DNA from: Metapseudomonas otitidis
GTDB lineage: Bacteria > Pseudomonadota > Gammaproteobacteria > Pseudomonadales > Pseudomonadaceae
Assembly: GCF_900111835.1 (NCBI RefSeq)
Contig: NZ_FOJP01000008.1
Span: 124,001-188,000 of the forward strand
Length of the DNA: 64,000 nt
Direction of reading: 5' to 3'
Shown here piece after piece: positions 19,961 to 29,004 of this stretch. A program made the translations under genes and the position numbers. Under the pieces are notes generated by a model. The model had not been told where the DNA came from. It searched no databases and saw only the letters and a list, made by a program, of their open reading frames with translations. Within the stretch, counting starts at the first letter, position 1. Every line of letters starts with the position of its first letter.

Positions 19961-20935
19961 CTACGAAGCGGTGCCGGGCTCAGAAGGTACGGCGTCACCT
20001 GCCTCGATCCGCCCCTCGAATACCGTTACCTCCCGCACCCCATCCCCTTCCCGTATCAGGAAGATCGCCTCCAGTCCCCGCGCCTGCGCCAGCTTCGGCC
20101 CGTGCTCGGGGCCGCGGACCATCAGCGCGGTGGCCCAGGCATCGGCCAGCATGCAACTGGCCGCGATCACGCTGACCGAGGCCAGCGGATTGCGCAGGGG
20201 CGCCGCCGTGGCCGGGTCGAAGGTGTGGGCGAGGCGCTCGCCGTCCTGCTCGACCCAGTGGCGGTAGTCACCGGAGGTGGCGATGGCCGCGTCCTGCAAT
20301 TCCACCACCCCGCGCACCTCGCGGCGGCCGTGCAGCGGTTGCTCCAGGGCCACGGCCCAGGGCTGCCCGTCGGGCTTGCGGCCACGGGCGCGCATCTCGC
20401 CGTCGATGCCCACCAGATAGGCCGTGATGCCGAAGCCGTCCAGGGTCTCCGCCAGGCGATCGACCCCATGGCCCTTGGCGATGCCGTTGAGGTCCAGCGC
20501 CAGCGGGTGATGTTTGCGCAGCCGGCTGCCGGTGCGGTCCAGCTCCAGGGCGCCGCGCCGGTGCGGGTGCGCGGGGGCGCCCGCCGTGCCGGGCGGGCCG
20601 AACCCCCAGGCCTGGACGGGTGCACCGAGGCTGATGTCGAAGGCCCCGGCGGAGAGCAGGCCGACGTTGAGGCCGGCGTCCACCACCCGCAGCAGCGCCG
20701 GGGACAGCGGCAGCCAGGTGTCCAGCGGGGCAGCGTTGAGCCGGCTCAGTTCGGAGTCGGGCCGCCACAGCGACATCTGCTGCTCCACGCGCTCCACCGC
20801 CTCGGCCAGGGCCTGGCGGATGGGCTCCAGGTCGCGTCCCGGCTCGGTGTAGAACAGCGCGGTGAAGCGGCTGCCCATGGTCGGCCCGCTGAGGGTCGCG
20901 CGCACCCGGGGTGGGGTATCAGTAGACGTCTTCAC
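19961..20935 (-). CDS. apbE: FAD:protein FMN transferase (ApbE family)
   Basis: A 324-residue ApbE-family flavin transferase, which links FMN to a threonine of target redox proteins. Family marks are GPTMGSRF at the start, FDISLGAPVQAWGFG, LDLNGIAKGHGVDRL, SGDYRHW and HTFDPATAAP. It starts at GTG and overlaps the PepSY-flavoprotein gene by 17 bases, with AGGGG as ribosome site. There is no lipobox or signal, so it may act in the cytoplasm, or on a partner through another route. The partner target is not visible. Confidence 0.88.
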   Translation of the reverse strand: MKTSTDTPPRVRATLSGPTMGSRFTALFYTEPGRDLEPIRQALAEAVERVEQQMSLWRPDSELSRLNAAPLDTWLPLSPALLRVVDAGLNVGLLSAGAFDISLGAPVQAWGFGPPGTAGAPAHPHRRGALELDRTGSRLRKHHPLALDLNGIAKGHGVDRLAETLDGFGITAYLVGIDGEMRARGRKPDGQPWAVALEQPLHGRREVRGVVELQDAAIATSGDYRHWVEQDGERLAHTFDPATAAPLRNPLASVSVIAASCMLADAWATALMVRGPEHGPKLAQARGLEAIFLIREGDGVREVTVFEGRIEAGDAVPSEPGTAS

Positions 20936-23105
20936 GGTAGCGCCCCTGTGCCTTGAGGTGGTTCACGTCCAGGCCCAGCGGGGCCAGCACGCGGTCCAGC
21001 GCGTGCATCACGCCCTGGGCCATGTCGCGGCCGCCGCACACCAGTACCTGGGCACCCTGGGCCAGCAGTTGGCGCAGCACCGGTGCGTCGCCCAGCAGGC
21101 GGTCCTGCACGTGCTGGCGCTCGGCATGCTGGGAGAAGGCCGCGCACAGCCGGGTCAGGCGCTGGTCGGCCAGGTAGCTGCGCAGTTCGTCCTCATAGAG
21201 GAAGTCCGACGCCGGGTGGCGACCGCCCCAGTACAGGTGCATCGGGTGCTGCTCGCGGTTGTTGCGGATGAAGCCGGTGAGCGGGCCGATGCCGGTGCCG
21301 GCACCGATGAGGATCACCGGGTGGCGCCCGCTGGCGGGACGGAACTGCGGGTTCGGCTGGATGAAGGCCTGCACCTGCCCGCCGATGGGCAGCCTGTGCA
21401 GCAGGCTGGAGCACAGCCCGCCTTCGTGCCGGCGCACGCAGATCTCCAGCACGCCGTCTTCGGCGCCACTGGCCAGGGAGTAGAAGCGCGGCATCGCGCT
21501 GCCGGGCGGGACGATGCCCACCAGGTCGCCGGCCTCGAAGGCGGGCAGGGCGGCGCTGCCGGAAGGCGCGCGGAAGCGCAGCACCTGGGTGGGCGCGTTC
21601 ACCTGTTCGCCGTAGACCCGGCGTTCCATCAGTTCCAGCGGTTGGCTGGCGGGGGCGCTGGGCTGGTGCTCCAGCTGCAGCGGGTGCCCCAGGGCCTCGC
21701 CCAGGGCCATGCCCCAGCGGTGGAAGGCCTGCGGCGACTGGCGGTCGATGCGCTCCAGCGGCAGCAGCGGCCGGGCGCCTTGGGCCAGCAGCGCGGCGTC
21801 CACCGCCTCGGCGTAGGCGCAGAAGCGCGGGAACTGGCGGTCACCGAAGCCCAGCACGGCCACCGGCAGGTCGGCCTGCAACCCGTCACGGGCCAGGCGT
21901 TCGAGAAAGCGCGAGGCGGATGCCGGCGCCGCGCCGTCGCCGTGGGTGGCGGTCAGCACCAGCAGCTGGCGGGCCAGGGGGTAGTGGGGCGCGAGGTCGT
22001 TCATCGGCGCGCAGTGGACGCGGTGCCCGGCGCTCGCCAGGGCCTCGGCCAGGGTGCGGGCGAAGCCCCAGGTGCTGTGGTGCTCGCTGCCCACCAGCAC
22101 CACGCAGTCGGCGTCTTCGGCCGTGTGGTTATCGTCCAGCCGCACCCGGTCGCTGCGCCGGCGCCACCACATCTGCACGCCGCTCAGGGTCATCAGCGGT
22201 ACGCCCAGGGCGGCCAGGCCGAGGACGGCGGCCAGCCAGCCGAGCCCTTCGCCGGTGTGCAGGCGCCAGGCCCATTCATAAGCCTGGTGGGCCGTGTTGT
22301 AGGGCTGGAAGCCGAGCCACTGGCCGCTGGCCGGGTCGACGTAGCCTTCGCCGTCGCGGGTGCTCAGGCCGTAGGGTTCGCCGGGGTTGTCGGGGCTGGG
22401 GAAGGTCAGCTCGCGCAGCTGCGCCAGGGGCAGCGTCTGCAGGGCGCCGAGCTCGGCCACCGGAGCGGGACGGGCATCGGCCTGCAGCTCGGGGTAGGGC
22501 GGCTCCGCCCCGCTGCCGTCGTCCACCAGGCCGAAGGTGCCCGCCGCCAGGTACAGCCCGGTGCAGGCGGTGAGCAGCAGCACCGGCATGGAGGCGCGCG
22601 CCACCTGCAGGTGCCAGCGCTGCATCAGGCTGCCCTTGAGCGGGGCGAACAGGCGTCGCCAGCCGCCCATGCGCCGGGCCAGCAGCCAGGCCCCGGAGAG
22701 GCTCAGCACCAGCATGGCCAGGGCGCCCAGGGCGGCGCCGGCGTGGCCGGGCGTACCCAGCAGCAGGGCCCGGTGCAGTTCACGCACCCAGCGCCAGAAG
22801 GGCGACGGGGCGTAGGCACCGAGGCTGGCGCCGGTCTGCGGGTCGACCCGTTCGGCCAGGGCCTGCCCGTCGCGGCGGTAATGCACCACCAGCGTGCCGG
22901 AGGGCAGCTGGCGCAGCTGTTCGACGTCGGGGAAGCGCTCGCTCACCTGGCCGGCCAGCTGGGCGACGCTCACAGGGGCCTCGGCGCGGGGCACGCTGGC
23001 CTGGTCCAGCACCGGGGACAGGGCCAGCAGGGCGCCGCTGAGGGCCATCAGCATCACCAGCAGGGCGGCGAACAGGCCGGGCAGGGCGTGGGTCTTGCGC
23101 AGCAT
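20919..23105 (-). CDS. PepSY membrane domain fused to flavodoxin and NADPH-flavin reductase
   Basis: A 728-residue inner-membrane protein. PepSY-type membrane helices at about residues 10-30, 120-140, 170-190 and 300-320 carry conserved histidines (RELHRALLLGTPGH, WRLHTGEG). A flavodoxin domain (about 345-475; LTATHGDG, LGFGDRQFPRFC) and a ferredoxin-reductase-type domain (RFYSLAS for FAD, GAGTGIGPLTGFI for NADP, ending EDVY) follow. It probably moves electrons from NADPH across the membrane, as proposed for PiuB-like ferric reductases linked to iron uptake. It sits between the DUF2271 and apbE genes. Confidence 0.88.
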   Translation of the reverse strand: MLRKTHALPGLFAALLVMLMALSGALLALSPVLDQASVPRAEAPVSVAQLAGQVSERFPDVEQLRQLPSGTLVVHYRRDGQALAERVDPQTGASLGAYAPSPFWRWVRELHRALLLGTPGHAGAALGALAMLVLSLSGAWLLARRMGGWRRLFAPLKGSLMQRWHLQVARASMPVLLLTACTGLYLAAGTFGLVDDGSGAEPPYPELQADARPAPVAELGALQTLPLAQLRELTFPSPDNPGEPYGLSTRDGEGYVDPASGQWLGFQPYNTAHQAYEWAWRLHTGEGLGWLAAVLGLAALGVPLMTLSGVQMWWRRRSDRVRLDDNHTAEDADCVVLVGSEHHSTWGFARTLAEALASAGHRVHCAPMNDLAPHYPLARQLLVLTATHGDGAAPASASRFLERLARDGLQADLPVAVLGFGDRQFPRFCAYAEAVDAALLAQGARPLLPLERIDRQSPQAFHRWGMALGEALGHPLQLEHQPSAPASQPLELMERRVYGEQVNAPTQVLRFRAPSGSAALPAFEAGDLVGIVPPGSAMPRFYSLASGAEDGVLEICVRRHEGGLCSSLLHRLPIGGQVQAFIQPNPQFRPASGRHPVILIGAGTGIGPLTGFIRNNREQHPMHLYWGGRHPASDFLYEDELRSYLADQRLTRLCAAFSQHAERQHVQDRLLGDAPVLRQLLAQGAQVLVCGGRDMAQGVMHALDRVLAPLGLDVNHLKAQGRYREDVY

Positions 23106-23120
23106 GGGGGTGCCCTCCGG

Positions 23121-23591
23121 TCAGAGGTCGTAGCGCAGGGATTGCACGTAGCCGTTGCCGCTCACCGGCTTTCCGGCGCCGTCGCGGGTCAGCGGCACCA
23201 CCACGTCGGCGCGCACGTCACGGTGGTCTTCCACGGCGCTGTCGATGCGGATCTGGTAGCCGGCGTCGATCAGGTTGTCCGCCACCTCGGCGCTGATTTT
23301 GAGGGTGCCGCCGCTGCCGACGCTGGCGCCGGTCAGCCCGTCGAACTCGCTGGCCTTGAGCCCGCTGCCGCGGGCCCAGTCGGTGAGGTGGCTGTAGTAC
23401 TTGGCCTTCTTCCCGGCAACCCAGAGGGTCTGCTGGTACTGGCCCTGGGCATTGGTGAGGTAGACCGCGAGGTAGGCGTCGTTACCGCTGTAGTCGGTGA
23501 GGTCGGCCTGCAGGGTGACTTCGCGGGCCTGGGCGATGCCCGAGACCAGCAGGGCGCTGGCGAGGCCGGAGGTGGTGAGGAGTCTGTTCAT
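23121..23591 (-). CDS. DUF2271 domain-containing exported protein
   Basis: A 156-residue protein with a cleavable signal peptide (cut after IAQA), then a beta-rich DUF2271 domain. DUF2271, PepSY-flavoprotein and ApbE genes occur together in many proteobacteria, and here all three are in one operon with 15-base and overlapping junctions. Its role is unknown; a periplasmic redox or iron partner is the contextual guess. Confidence 0.85.
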   Translation of the reverse strand: MNRLLTTSGLASALLVSGIAQAREVTLQADLTDYSGNDAYLAVYLTNAQGQYQQTLWVAGKKAKYYSHLTDWARGSGLKASEFDGLTGASVGSGGTLKISAEVADNLIDAGYQIRIDSAVEDHRDVRADVVVPLTRDGAGKPVSGNGYVQSLRYDL

Positions 23592-23705: not shown

Positions 23706-25769
23706 TCAGAGGAACTCGGCGCGAATGCGGTCGAGGTCCAGCGGGTCGATGTCGCCGTCGGGTCCGAAGCGCAGGTCGGCCTCGGCGGGGTCGTCCACCT
23801 CGCTGCCACGGGCCTCGACGTGCAGCTCGAACAGGGTGTGGAGGTCCGGCGTGGCCAGGTCGCTCATGGCCCGGAGCATCAGGGCGATGCCGCTGAGGTT
23901 GTTGGCCACGTTGTTCCAGCGCGGGTAGCTACCCAGGCCGATGTCGGTCCAGATCACCTGCCGTGCCTCCAGGTCGAGGATGAAGGGCAGGCAGGTCTGC
24001 TGGTCGCTGGCCAGGTCCAGGCGGTCTTCCACGGTGCGGGCCTCGAAGGGCTCGCCGGAGTTCACCTGGTCACGGGCCATCCAGCCGGCGAAGCACTCCG
24101 GCAGGTCGCAATAGGGCTGCCGGGTGTAGCTGTTGATGCAGGTGACCACGAAGCGGATGCCGCGTGTGCGCAGCAGCTCCAGGTCCAGGTCGATGAATTC
24201 CGCTGCGCCTTTCGGGGCGTCGACGATGTCGCCGCTGTGGTGCCCGCCGTAGTGACGCAGGTTGTAAAAGGACACCACGTCGCGGTAGCCGAAGCCGCCG
24301 TCGAAGAAGGCTGCCGAGAGGTCGATGTCGGTGCGCTCGCGGCCGTTGGTCCACCAGAGGAACAGGCGGATGAAGCGGGTGTCCGGCAGCGGCAGGCGGC
24401 TGCCGCGCACCAGGGTACGCAGTGCCTTGGCGGCCGAGCGCTGGGCCAGCGGCACCTTCAGGTCCGCCAGCGCCGGATCCAGGTAGCAGCGGCCCAGCGG
24501 AGGGCGTGTGGCGAAGCGCGCCACCAGGGCCGCGCGCAGGTGCGCGATGACCTGGGTGCGCAGCGTGCCCGGCAGCGCCGGGCGTTGCTCCGGCGTGCAC
24601 CAGGCGCGGGCGGCGTCGCCCTTGGGGAAGAAGGTGCGCAGCGCGGCCTGGCCGCGGTGCTGGAAATGCGCCAGGGCCTGCAGCAGCACAGCGGTGGACA
24701 CCTGCTCGGCCACGCGGGCGAAGGTGGCGAGGACGTCCTCGGGTTGGTCGCCGCTGCGCAGCAGGTGGTCCAGCCGACGGGCCAGCTCACCGGGGCGTGT
24801 GCGCAGCAGGCGGGTGGCGTCGGCGCTGTGGCCCGCCGCCAGGGCCTGTTCGACGCGGCTGTTGAACCCTTCGAAGGGGCGGTCTTCACGCAGCACCTGG
24901 AAGGCGTCCCAGGCCTGAGGGAAGCGCTCGCGCCACTGGCCGGGGTGCAGGGCTTCGCCCAGGCGCTTCCAGCGTTCCTTCCAGCGCAGCATGTCTTCCA
25001 CCGGCGCCGGGCAGGCTTCCAGCAGCCCCAGCAGCAGGCGCCGCTCGCGCCGTGCAAGGCCCTTGAAGCGGCAGGCCTGGGCCAGGGAGGCATCGCCCTC
25101 GCACAGGCACACGGCCAGGCGCAGCACATCGGTGGCGGTGCGCAGCTGGGCCTGGGCAAAGGCCTCGGCGCCATCGAACGGCCCATGGCGCAGCAGCAGT
25201 GCGGCGATCAGCGCGAGGTTTTCCTTGAACGGGATGCTTGCCGGCAGCAGCCGCATCACCCCCTCGCCATAGGCGCTGACGAAGGTGCGCAGGTCGTCCC
25301 GGTCCTCCACCGACAGCGAGCTGCTGGAGGCGGCCAGGCGGGTGAAGATCGCCTCGCGCTCGGCCACGCTGCCCAGGCGGATCAGCCGGGGCGCGCGGCC
25401 GTGCAGCAACGGCACGGGCGCGTCCGGCGTGGCCGGGTGTTCGCGAAGCAGGGTCAGGTAGTGCTGCACCGCGCGCTGGTACAGCGCGTACTCGGGCACC
25501 TGGCGCACGCTGCGGGGGAACTCGGGGAACAGGGGCCGGTACTGCCGGTGGGCACCGGTGAGCGCGGCCAGGGTGGTGCGCAGTTCCACCAGCACCTCGG
25601 CCAGTTGCGCCGTGGACTGGGTGGCCAGCCGCTCCACCAGGGGCTCGTCGAGCACGAAACCGAGGTTCTCCACCTCCTGCTGCACCATCACCACGTCCCT
25701 CGGGCTGGCACCGCCGGCCCCGGGCTCCAGTACGAAACGACGGCTGCGCCGCAGGAAGAGTCCGTTCAC
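23706..25769 (-). CDS. large TerD-like domain protein
   Basis: A 687-residue protein of a poorly described family. The start is GTG at 25769, with GGAG five bases upstream. The first 430 residues are helical and without a known motif. From about residue 455 the sequence follows the TerD plan: LFLWWTNGRERTDIDLSAAFF, SFYNLRHYGGHHSGD, FIDLDLELL and GIRFVVTCINSYT. A cysteine group (VTCINSYTRQPYCDLPEC) could bind metal. TerD domains bind calcium and belong to tellurite/stress ter systems, but no other ter gene is here. It may belong to the large TerD-containing family typified by MXAN_6230/SCO0854, by memory only. Confidence 0.65.
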   Translation of the reverse strand: MNGLFLRRSRRFVLEPGAGGASPRDVVMVQQEVENLGFVLDEPLVERLATQSTAQLAEVLVELRTTLAALTGAHRQYRPLFPEFPRSVRQVPEYALYQRAVQHYLTLLREHPATPDAPVPLLHGRAPRLIRLGSVAEREAIFTRLAASSSSLSVEDRDDLRTFVSAYGEGVMRLLPASIPFKENLALIAALLLRHGPFDGAEAFAQAQLRTATDVLRLAVCLCEGDASLAQACRFKGLARRERRLLLGLLEACPAPVEDMLRWKERWKRLGEALHPGQWRERFPQAWDAFQVLREDRPFEGFNSRVEQALAAGHSADATRLLRTRPGELARRLDHLLRSGDQPEDVLATFARVAEQVSTAVLLQALAHFQHRGQAALRTFFPKGDAARAWCTPEQRPALPGTLRTQVIAHLRAALVARFATRPPLGRCYLDPALADLKVPLAQRSAAKALRTLVRGSRLPLPDTRFIRLFLWWTNGRERTDIDLSAAFFDGGFGYRDVVSFYNLRHYGGHHSGDIVDAPKGAAEFIDLDLELLRTRGIRFVVTCINSYTRQPYCDLPECFAGWMARDQVNSGEPFEARTVEDRLDLASDQQTCLPFILDLEARQVIWTDIGLGSYPRWNNVANNLSGIALMLRAMSDLATPDLHTLFELHVEARGSEVDDPAEADLRFGPDGDIDPLDLDRIRAEFL

Positions 25770-26019
25770 ATCAGCTCCTGGAAATGAAAAGCCCACCAGG
25801 CGGTGGGCGGTGTGGAAAGCGGGCACCCTAGTTTCAGAGGTAGAAGGAAGGACGCCCATAGCCACGGCGCGATGATAGTGCGGTCCTGGCCGGCAGGAAA
25901 ACCGTCGAAGTTGCGAAGCTTCGACGCCTTCGCATTTCCAGGGGCGGCGCTCTGGTGGCGCTGCCCGCGCCGCGCCATCATTGCGCGTTTTTTCGCAGGC
26001 CCTCAGGAGGGGTGACGGG
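25770..26019. promoter_or_regulatory. divergent promoter region of the TerD-like and WG-repeat genes
   Basis: The region separates two divergent starts. CGTCGAAG and CTTCGACG (25903-25926) form a perfect 8-bp dyad around an 8-base spacer, which itself contributes the palindrome CGAAGCTTCG. AGGAGG at 26005-26010 is the ribosome site for the + gene. The dyad is well placed to control both genes. Confidence 0.5.
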
Positions 26020-29004
26020 ATGGAGCAGGGCATGGCGTGGGAGGCGGCTTCGGGCGCCTGGTTGCACCTCGGGCAGGACGAGGCGCCGCCGCGCTGCGTG
26101 GCCTTCTGTGGCGAGGTCCCGGCGCTGTGGCTGGTGCTGCTGGGCGGTGCCCGCGAGGTGCCGGCCGTCACCCCGGCCACGGCGGGCTACCAGGTGCCGG
26201 CCATCGGCCTGCGGGTATCGCTGGAACAGGCCCTGGCCAACTGGCAGCGGTTGGGCGGGTGGCTGCGGGCGCACCCGCAGTTCTACCGCGTGCCCGCCCT
26301 GGGCCTGTGCCTGGCGGCGGTGGAGGCGTGGTTGCGGACGGCAGCCGAGGACCAGGGTACGGCCTGGCTGCAGGGTGACCTGGATGCCGTTTCCGGGCCG
26401 TTCGACCGCAACGCTCCCTCGTGCAGCGGCTTCTGGCGCTGGAATGCCGATGACCGGCTCCAGGCCCTGGCCGATGGCTTGGCGGACCTGCACCGCCTCA
26501 CCGGCGTGATGGATTTCGAGGAACTGGGCGAGTGGCACCGTGGGTTCGGCTTCGGCACCCTGCGCCACCCCTGGTTCGAGGCCCTGGGGCAACTGGATGG
26601 GTTCGCCGCGTTGGAGCACCCCTTCCCGGCGCTGCCGCCCTGTGAGCCGGTGGAACATGATCCCTGGTGGGAGCACAGCTACCGGGCCCACGCCCAGGAC
26701 GATCGCTGGGGCCTGGTCAACCAGGCGGACGGCACCTGGCACGAGGCCCCGCGCTGGGACGCCATCCTGCCGGACAGCCACAGCTTCATCCGCGTCTGGG
26801 TACGCCAGGGCGCGCTGTGGGGTGTGCTGCAGATCGAACCGGCGGTGGAGCTGCTGCTGGCCCCGCAATTCGACGCGGTGGTGGACAGCGCCTGTGACGA
26901 CCACATGGTGGCCAGCCAGGGCGGCCTGCTGGGGCTGATGCACATTCCCAGCGGCCAGTGGCGGCTGCCGCCGCGCTTCCACGAGCTGCGCCGGGAGACC
27001 GACGAGCTGCTGCGGGCCCGGGAGGGTGCGCACTACGGCTTCCTCGACCTCGACGGTCAGTGGCGGGTGCCGCCCCGCTACCAGGACACACGGCCCTTCG
27101 GTGGCACGCTCGCCTTCGACGCCCCGGGCCTGGCCTGGGTGATGGCGGAGGGCCGCTGGGGCCTGCTGGACGAGCAGGGCCAGGAGCGCCTGGCCTGCCG
27201 CTACGACCAGGTGGAGTGGCGGCAGGAGCATGACCATCGCGGCTGGCGCGTAGGGCGGGACGGCCGCCAGGGCTGGGTCGGCATCGACGGCCGCGAGGCG
27301 GTGCCCTGCGAATGGGACGAGGTGGACTGCTACGAGCCCTACCGGCACCCCCTGCAGGCCGAGGGCATCTACCGGGTGACCCGCAACGGCCTGCACGGCC
27401 TGCTGCCGGCGCTGGGCGACTGGCACGTGGCCCCGCGCTACACGGAGATCGAACCGCTGGGGCTCGGCCAGGGGGCCGCGCCGTTGCCGGCCGACCCCTG
27501 GCGCAATGCGCCGGAGCCGGACGGCAGCCTGGCGGTGTGGATCGCCGAGGGCAGTGGCGAGCCCGGCGCGCCGGGGCTGCTGATCCGTGTGCGCGATCAG
27601 CAGGGGTGCGCGGTGATCGACGAACGCGAACGGCAGTGGGTGCCGCCGTCGCCGGGGCTGGTGGAAACCCTGGGCAACGGCAACCAGCGCTGGCTGAAGC
27701 GAACCGATGAGCAGGACCGCCAGCAGCTTTGGAGCCTGGCCCGTGGCGAGCCCGCGCTGCCCGGCTGGCACGCCGGGGTCGAGGTGCTGGAGCTGCCGGA
27801 CCAGCCGCTGCTGCTGACCTTCGAACGCCTCGACGGCCCCGAGGGTTTCAGCCTGGGCCTGCGCCTGTGGCGGGAAACGGGCGAACCTGCGCTGGAGGGC
27901 TGCTTCAGCGCCCTGGCGGGCCAATCGTTCTGGCTGCCACGGCTGGACGAGGACACCCGCGAACAACTGCTCGAGGCCTGGAGCCGTGGGCAGGACGTAC
28001 CGGCCGAGGCCTGGGAGGCGGGGCAGGCACAGCCCTGTTTCGTCCGCCCCGGCCAGCCCCGGCAGAGTGCCCAGGCGGCCTGGCAGGCGCGCTACCAGGC
28101 CGGCGACCTGCAGGCCGCGTTGGCCCTGTCGCGCCTGGCCGCTTCCCCCACGGAGGCCTACGCCTGGGCCCGCCGGGCTTGTGCACTGGACGGCGGCACG
28201 GGCACGCCGAGCGCGGGCGCCTGGTTGCAACTGACGCGCCTGGCGCTGCAAGGCGCGGGCGGTGATGACGCCCTGCCGGCGGCCCGTGACTGGGTGGCCC
28301 GGGTGCGGGCGTCGGAGCCTGAGCTGGACGAAGGCTTCGAGGCCTCGGCCCTGGAGGCACGCCTGTGGCTGGACCCGGCTGCAGGCCCGGTGGATGGCGC
28401 GCGGGCCCTGGCGGCGGCCGATTACCTGGTTGCGGTGACCGGCACGACCCAGGCGCTGCACCACGAGGGGCGCTACCTGCTGGGGCGCTGCCACCGTGAG
28501 GGGCAGGGCACAGCGGTGGACCTGGACGCCGCCCGCGAGCACTGGCGCATCGCGGCCGCCGACGGCCATGGCGCCGCTACCCGGGCGTTGGTGGAGCTGC
28601 TGGCCGAGCAGGCCTCGGCCGAGGACGACCAAGCCGCCGCCGAGCGCCTGTGGCTGGAGGCCCGGCAGCACGCCTGGAACTACCTGGAGCACCCCGGCGA
28701 CGCCGGTGACGCGGCGGTGATCACCGCCTTGCACGGGGTCTGTGGCGAGCTGGAACTGCTCAGCGAGCCCCTCGATTGGGCGGCCGCCGAATACCACCTG
28801 TTGCAGGCCGCCGAGGCGGGCCATCTGCCTGCCATGGGCTTGCTGGCAGTGGAGGTCTATCGCCGACGCGGGAGCCCGCTGCGGGACGGTCGCCAGGCCC
28901 GTGCCTGGGCGCTGCGCCATGCCGAGGCCAGTGGCGCGCTGCCGGCGGAAGCGCCGGCCGCCTGGCGCTGGCTGCTGGGCTGGCTCCTCTGGCTGCGGGG
29001 GTGA
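26020..29004 (+). CDS. WG-repeat and Sel1-like repeat protein
   Basis: A 994-residue protein without signal peptide. The first 220 residues are unassigned. About seven WG-type repeats run over residues 225-485, including RWGLVNQADGTW, HYGFLDLDGQWRVPPRY, RWGLLDEQGQE and QGWVGIDGRE. Residues about 690-990 are helical Sel1/TPR-like units (GRCHREGQGTAVDLDAAREHW). Such scaffolds bind proteins or peptides and are common in bacterial conflict and stress loci. The ATG at 26020 is preferred because AGGAGG lies 9 bases upstream. It is divergent from the TerD-like gene, which suggests joint function. Confidence 0.75.
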   Translation: MEQGMAWEAASGAWLHLGQDEAPPRCVAFCGEVPALWLVLLGGAREVPAVTPATAGYQVPAIGLRVSLEQALANWQRLGGWLRAHPQFYRVPALGLCLAAVEAWLRTAAEDQGTAWLQGDLDAVSGPFDRNAPSCSGFWRWNADDRLQALADGLADLHRLTGVMDFEELGEWHRGFGFGTLRHPWFEALGQLDGFAALEHPFPALPPCEPVEHDPWWEHSYRAHAQDDRWGLVNQADGTWHEAPRWDAILPDSHSFIRVWVRQGALWGVLQIEPAVELLLAPQFDAVVDSACDDHMVASQGGLLGLMHIPSGQWRLPPRFHELRRETDELLRAREGAHYGFLDLDGQWRVPPRYQDTRPFGGTLAFDAPGLAWVMAEGRWGLLDEQGQERLACRYDQVEWRQEHDHRGWRVGRDGRQGWVGIDGREAVPCEWDEVDCYEPYRHPLQAEGIYRVTRNGLHGLLPALGDWHVAPRYTEIEPLGLGQGAAPLPADPWRNAPEPDGSLAVWIAEGSGEPGAPGLLIRVRDQQGCAVIDERERQWVPPSPGLVETLGNGNQRWLKRTDEQDRQQLWSLARGEPALPGWHAGVEVLELPDQPLLLTFERLDGPEGFSLGLRLWRETGEPALEGCFSALAGQSFWLPRLDEDTREQLLEAWSRGQDVPAEAWEAGQAQPCFVRPGQPRQSAQAAWQARYQAGDLQAALALSRLAASPTEAYAWARRACALDGGTGTPSAGAWLQLTRLALQGAGGDDALPAARDWVARVRASEPELDEGFEASALEARLWLDPAAGPVDGARALAAADYLVAVTGTTQALHHEGRYLLGRCHREGQGTAVDLDAAREHWRIAAADGHGAATRALVELLAEQASAEDDQAAAERLWLEARQHAWNYLEHPGDAGDAAVITALHGVCGELELLSEPLDWAAAEYHLLQAAEAGHLPAMGLLAVEVYRRRGSPLRDGRQARAWALRHAEASGALPAEAPAAWRWLLGWLLWLRG

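Follow-up and report, generated by a model that had tools for sequence, protein, structure and literature searches.

A conserved small RNA accompanies a TerD-domain protein with a predicted Ro60-like ring in bacteria and jumbo phages

Analysis of a 64,000-nt stretch of the Metapseudomonas otitidis genome (contig NZ_FOJP01000008.1, positions 124,001 to 188,000, referred to here in its full length as the window) showed two divergent genes, for proteins of 687 and 994 amino acids, which stand head to head across a 250-bp gap, as a first-pass annotation of the sequence had stated (Table 1). The longer protein carries the WG repeats ascribed to it (PF14903, E 1e-13), whereas the Sel1-like repeats named alongside them gave a weak match under the Pfam cut-off. 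The shorter, TerD-like protein is not part of a standard ter operon, a point on which the annotation was also correct: a search of the whole window genome with the TerD profile (PF02342) gave no match, and the five TerC genes of this genome sit on other contigs. On its other side, the TerD-like gene adjoins an apparent FMN-dependent redox cluster (window positions 19961 to 23591) composed of an ApbE flavin transferase, a PepSY/flavodoxin-reductase fusion, and a DUF2271 periplasmic protein.

Table 1. Features of the locus, in window coordinates
Feature	Position	Strand	Remarks
TerD-like gene	23706-25769	minus	687-aa ORF, GTG start
N-terminal region, Ro60/TROVE-like helical ring (about residues 126-420), TerD domain (about residues 450-635)	within 23706-25769	minus	predicted structure
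Terminator-like hairpin	25787-25808	minus	GCCCACC-GCCT-GGTGGGC + TTTT; between RNA and start codon
Conserved structured small RNA, ~60 nt	25809-25868	minus	model R1, 65 bits, E 7.6e-17 (this copy is one of the 30 used to build R1)
-10-like box	25872-25877	minus	TATCAT; sigma70-like; puts the inferred RNA 5′ end at about P1
Dyad	25903-25926	none	CGTCGAAGTTGCGAAGCTTCGACG; equalled in length by 17/300 dinucleotide shuffles
WG/Sel1 gene	26020-29004	plus	994-aa ORF, WG-repeat/weak Sel1 protein (Pfam)

The two genes had been proposed to form a single stress or conflict module. For a linkage test, 80 loci with homologues of the TerD-like gene were taken from a species-representative collection, and the neighbor was sought within 8 kb. 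A WG/Sel1 gene was found at only one of them, a P. alcaligenes record from the same genus; the homologues are thus routinely unlinked, the outcome that the annotation itself had named as refuting the module. Within the genus, the TerD-like gene occurs in 3 of 18 genomes, the window genome and two close relatives, and all three retain the divergent WG/Sel1 neighbor, which speaks for a module; the neighbor in the two relatives has no WG repeats. Across the Pseudomonadaceae, the neighbor is present in 3 of the 10 genomes that carry the TerD-like gene. The other seven, Pseudomonas of another genus, have a TerD-like gene of ~50% identity with no WG/Sel1 neighbor; it lies mostly by guaBA, close to genes whose products have N-terminal domains of the dermonecrotic-toxin type. 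The converse also occurs: in one genome (G017), a WG-less homologue of the WG/Sel1 gene lies beside the same aldehyde dehydrogenase and the TerD-like gene is missing. Because the pair was found at 1 of 80 loci and each gene occurs without the other in the Pseudomonadaceae, the module was rejected and is scarcely credible as an explanation of the locus. The WG/Sel1 gene, whose linkage is lost beyond the genus, is a chance or lineage-specific neighbor outside the system. The claim that the locus holds an undescribed system stands, with a small RNA as the partner instead of the WG/Sel1 gene.

Some side observations concern these neighborhoods. The nearest homologues of the WG/Sel1 protein have no WG repeats at all; the repeats (about residues 212 to 680 of the window protein) are missing from those at L009 to L011, which keep both ends only, a gain or loss of a domain inside one genus. 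The guaBA site is variable, with large ToxA_N-domain (dermonecrotic-type) proteins (L028, L030, L031, L032, and L034) and HipA instead at one site. TerC was considered as a partner and set aside: it adjoins the TerD-like gene in two relatives, and a third has TerC and the WG-less neighbor with no TerD-like gene. In relatives, the TerD-like or WG-less gene adjoins a gene for a TerC-family membrane protein and two small, conserved genes with no Pfam match (L017:11146-13895 and L016:7888-9948); all three are absent from the corresponding part of the window.

The gap itself encodes a conserved structured RNA that the first-pass annotation had overlooked. The perfect dyad noted there is present, but its length is not unusual (Table 1), and it is probably incidental. 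The RNA has the layout P1-GGCUAU-P2-UUCCUUCUA loop-UAG-P2′-YUUUCC-P1′, in which P2 is an 8-bp stem and the part of the loop after UUCCUUCUA is variable, followed by UAG, the returning stem, YUUUCC, and the outer stem. Leaders bearing it are strikingly alike across the Pseudomonadota, Verrucomicrobiota, a Pyrinomonadaceae MAG, Cyanobacteria, Chloroflexota, Armatimonadota, and Bacillota. In an alignment of 30 diverse copies, 93% of the cells were paired, two-sided changes were found at 12 of 15 pairs, and the covariation score was 0.843, compared to 0.202 for shuffled alignments and at most 0.204 for slid registers. The same 30 copies served to build the covariance model R1. A known Rfam RNA was ruled out as the identity of the new RNA: no family of Rfam 15 matched, the sole sub-threshold match being that of the adjacent terminator-like hairpin, as an isrD-like terminator (E 0.9), and the YrlA model (RF02553) left it unmatched, though the same model detected YrlA itself elsewhere in the Pelomonas locus L041. 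The new RNA makes up a small-RNA class that Rfam 15 does not contain and whose members occur in several bacterial phyla as well as in jumbo phages.

The RNA is genetically coupled to the TerD-like gene. First, R1 found it at 79 of the 80 homologue loci, in several phyla and always on the strand of the gene; the exception (L076) has only ~115 nt of sequence ahead of the gene. Second, among 298 Pseudomonadaceae genomes it is confined to the protein locus of the ten that encode the protein; an additional 19-bit protein fragment, which contains an internal stop, is left out of this count. Third, all RNA copies in 32 further genomes lie at the protein locus, and when 398 Pseudomonadota genomes were scanned for the RNA first, three cases already known came up along with a single new genome (G445), in which the protein gene is directly downstream of the RNA. 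Finally, actinobacterial and Deinococcus members of the protein family that bear a RING domain are also accompanied by the RNA, which therefore belongs to the wider NF041916 family described below. This distribution, together with the conservation, gives good support to a dedicated RNA-protein pair.

In bacteria, the RNA directly precedes the gene at most loci. In Proteobacteria it is preceded by a -10-like box and followed by a terminator-like hairpin that folds separately, 3′ of the small RNA. The boxes cluster ~14 to 16 nt 5′ of GGCUAU (45 non-redundant leaders; 3.98 matches versus 3.26, sd 0.11). This arrangement suggests a discrete small RNA, which would be transcribed from its own promoter and often stopped by the terminator, with the protein made by read-through into the gene. 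Conservation of the leader first suggested a riboswitch, and a cis-acting element, either a riboswitch or an autoregulatory leader, would account for the upstream position, for the terminator-like hairpin, and for the placement by the ribosome-binding site in Paenibacillus. However, the RNA is not always upstream in cis, as such an element would be. Six lineages have copies on the downstream side of the gene (Niallia, Vibrio, Heyndrickxia, Dawidia, a Variovorax plasmid, and one jumbo phage). Because copies occur downstream of the gene and far off in phage tRNA arrays, the RNA is taken to act in trans, and control of the downstream gene by a cis element is very doubtful; the riboswitch was ruled out on the same grounds. 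The copy number ranges from 1 to 6, and single copies are common. In Brevibacillus, an extra copy lies ~1.8 kb upstream of the gene-adjacent one (L085:6107-6170, L089:6080-6143, and L091:6081-6144).

The protein also occurs in Rhodococcus, Rhodobacter, Ruegeria, Xanthomonas, Salicola, Lactobacillus, and uncultured jumbo phages, and phage members match NF041916. The RNA was found at 66 of 75 viral protein loci, a set that includes several near-duplicate contigs, and all 156 RNA hits were on the gene strand; at the nine loci where R1 gave no RNA, the gene sits at a contig end in at least three. The phage copies, aligned by fitting to R1 and none of them used to build it, were 88% paired, and both sides had changed in 14 of 15 pairs. 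A motif scan of 2.9 million viral contigs returned 68 stretches, and R1 confirmed the structure in 49; the remaining 19 look like chance pattern matches. The protein is beside the RNA in 42 of the 49, and the other seven are all inside tRNA arrays, away from the protein gene (L204, L206, L224, L211, L250, L251, and L257). These seven array copies come from six records. A gene for the protein is present elsewhere in the three large records (463, 250, and 236 kb) and missing from the other three (61, 24, and 9.6 kb). In phages, the RNA may also be produced from tRNA arrays. Phage neighbors of the system include tRNAs and tRNA nucleotidyltransferases. In a review of jumbo phages (PMC7824862), TROVE proteins and stand-alone TerD appear as separate entries.

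The N-terminal part of the 687-aa protein, which had been described as a long unknown helical region, fits a known NCBIfam family, NF041916 (MXAN_6230/SCO0854 family RING domain-containing protein; E 6e-150), a match the first reading missed. The similarity lies outside the RING, and the score, 501 bits, is under the curated cut-off of 600. Alignment with a RING-bearing Streptomyces member shows that the whole RING segment is deleted in the window protein and its close relatives, and the RING signature was found in none of 50 close homologues; Variovorax and Vibrio forms keep part of the segment. The window protein has no Pfam match, PF02342 included, and a sequence search for relatives of solved structure gave none. 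In the open-licence literature, no paper on SCO0854/MXAN_6230 was found, nor was any description of the RNA-protein pair when TerD was combined with riboswitch candidates, with Ro60, or with RNA repair.

AlphaFold models of the protein reached a pLDDT of 83 in full length and 89 for the ring alone (residues 126 to 452). The predicted C-terminal domain has a TerD fold, in agreement with the TerD plan read from the sequence (3ibz, Z 14.2; 2qz7, Z 13.6; 2kxt, Z 12.1; Foldseek E 7e-4). For the predicted ring alone, the six top structural matches were all Ro60/TROVE proteins (Z 12.5 to 10.7 over 262 to 284 of 327 residues), including a phage Ro60 and human Ro60-RNA complexes, and the next-best match had a Z of 8.0 at 16.8 Å, values to be read against the Z of 13 that helical-repeat rings can attain by chance. 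Foldseek by itself did not call Ro60 for the ring, the TROVE profile (PF05731) matched none of 50 homologues, and comparison of ring and TROVE profiles gave 10% probability or nothing, a sub-region test with shuffled controls being weak or null as well. Sequence homology to TROVE was set aside on these results. Because the profile comparisons were weak or null, the comparison with Ro60 is one of predicted structures; and because such Z scores can arise by chance, Foldseek was silent, and the sequence profiles did not link the two, likeness to Ro60 is claimed and not membership in its family. The vWA domain that ends Ro60/TROVE proteins was not found; the C-terminal fold here is TerD. A canonical Ro60 (TROVE) gene is present elsewhere in the window genome (G000 contig C5:67060-67227, L197; 516-aa ORF).

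The predicted folds also bear on a reading of the locus as a type III toxin-antitoxin-like unit, in which tandem RNA hairpins would neutralize a toxin protein. The order of promoter, RNA repeats, terminator, and gene in Proteobacteria is the ToxIN layout, and the range of copy numbers and the occurrence in phages and plasmids would fit. However, a ToxN-like endoribonuclease was not among the fold matches of either the ring or the TerD domain, the defence-system profiles of PADLOC gave no match, and single RNA copies and copies downstream or far off in tRNA arrays do not suit such a unit. We consider this reading unlikely.

RNA-repair genes neighbor the system at a minority of loci, largely in Burkholderiales, and most bacterial loci are stand-alone. 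One example is the Pelomonas locus L041, with the gene order rtcR (divergent), Ro60, YrlA, rtcB, rtcA, the new RNA, and the new gene. In Variovorax, rtcB with rtcR, Ro60, or an RNase Z-like gene is close to the new gene, and in a Hyphomicrobiaceae MAG (L080) rtcA adjoins it. Together with the tRNAs and tRNA nucleotidyltransferases beside the system in phages, these neighbors point to RNA, probably tRNA, repair or surveillance. Beyond the new gene, the Pelomonas locus (L041:4441-15768) continues into a large array of tRNAs, in which a GOLLD RNA itself embeds a tRNA.

Taken together, the 687-aa protein and the ~60-nt RNA probably form a ribonucleoprotein built like that of Ro60 with Y RNA. The HEAT-type ring would hold the RNA and, by analogy with Ro60, could capture RNA that is damaged or misfolded, for instance cleaved tRNA, while the TerD domain, in the place of the Ro60 vWA domain, may sense a ligand or metal. 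The particle would thereby serve in RNA repair, and in large phages the module probably protects or repairs their tRNAs and other RNA. It may also be that the ribonucleoprotein is real and its likeness to Ro60 convergent, the ring being a generic HEAT-like array with another role, e.g., tRNA binding or phage counter-defence; the lack of sequence homology to TROVE and the tRNA-array and tRNA-nucleotidyltransferase neighbors in phages would agree with this. Against it, the six best ring matches are all Ro60 with a large gap to the next, and some RNA-repair loci of the system hold a true Ro60, which makes convergence quite improbable. For the Ro60-like particle, a broader proposal is evenly balanced in our judgment, namely, that it represents a widespread bacterial and phage class in which an uncatalogued trans-acting RNA and a Ro60-shaped ring protein, with TerD (in some lineages RING) replacing vWA, serve RNA repair or resistance to RNA-cleaving defences.

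A large family whose members had no annotation beyond "RING" or "TerD family protein" gains an RNA partner and a testable mechanism. The shortness of the RNA, its high conservation, and its genetic coupling to a single protein make binding and structure directly testable. Ro60/Y-RNA-type particles are known from animals and a few bacteria, and the human Ro60-Y RNA is an autoantigen. If the interpretation is true, these particles would belong, as a single branch, to a broader group of ring-RNA machines.

Comparison with known systems shows features shared with several of them. Ro60/Rsr-Y RNA particles are alike in having a HEAT-like ring (by comparison of predicted structure), a small hairpin RNA encoded beside the protein, an occasional rtcR-rtcBA context, and an occurrence in phages. 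They differ in that Ro60 has vWA where the new protein has TerD, the new protein shows no significant TROVE sequence similarity, and the new RNA is distinct from YrlA and in no Rfam family; the window genome also has its own canonical Ro gene apart from the new one. Ro60 binds Y RNA and misfolded RNA; for the new protein, the association seen with its different hairpin RNA is genetic. The MXAN_6230/SCO0854 family (NF041916) aligns outside the RING, and its RING-bearing members also have the RNA, but the window protein has lost the RING zinc finger and falls short of the curated cut-off. TerD (PF02342) stress proteins share the predicted fold of the C-terminal domain, whereas the new protein has no Pfam match, is fused to a large helical ring, and is not in a ter operon. 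ToxIN-type systems share the order of RNA hairpins, terminator, and gene and differ in protein fold, in the variable position of the RNA, and in its tRNA-array copies. Finally, the RtcR-rtcBA RNA-repair operon shares loci with the new system in Pelomonas, Variovorax, and Hyphomicrobiaceae, although the new system mostly stands alone.
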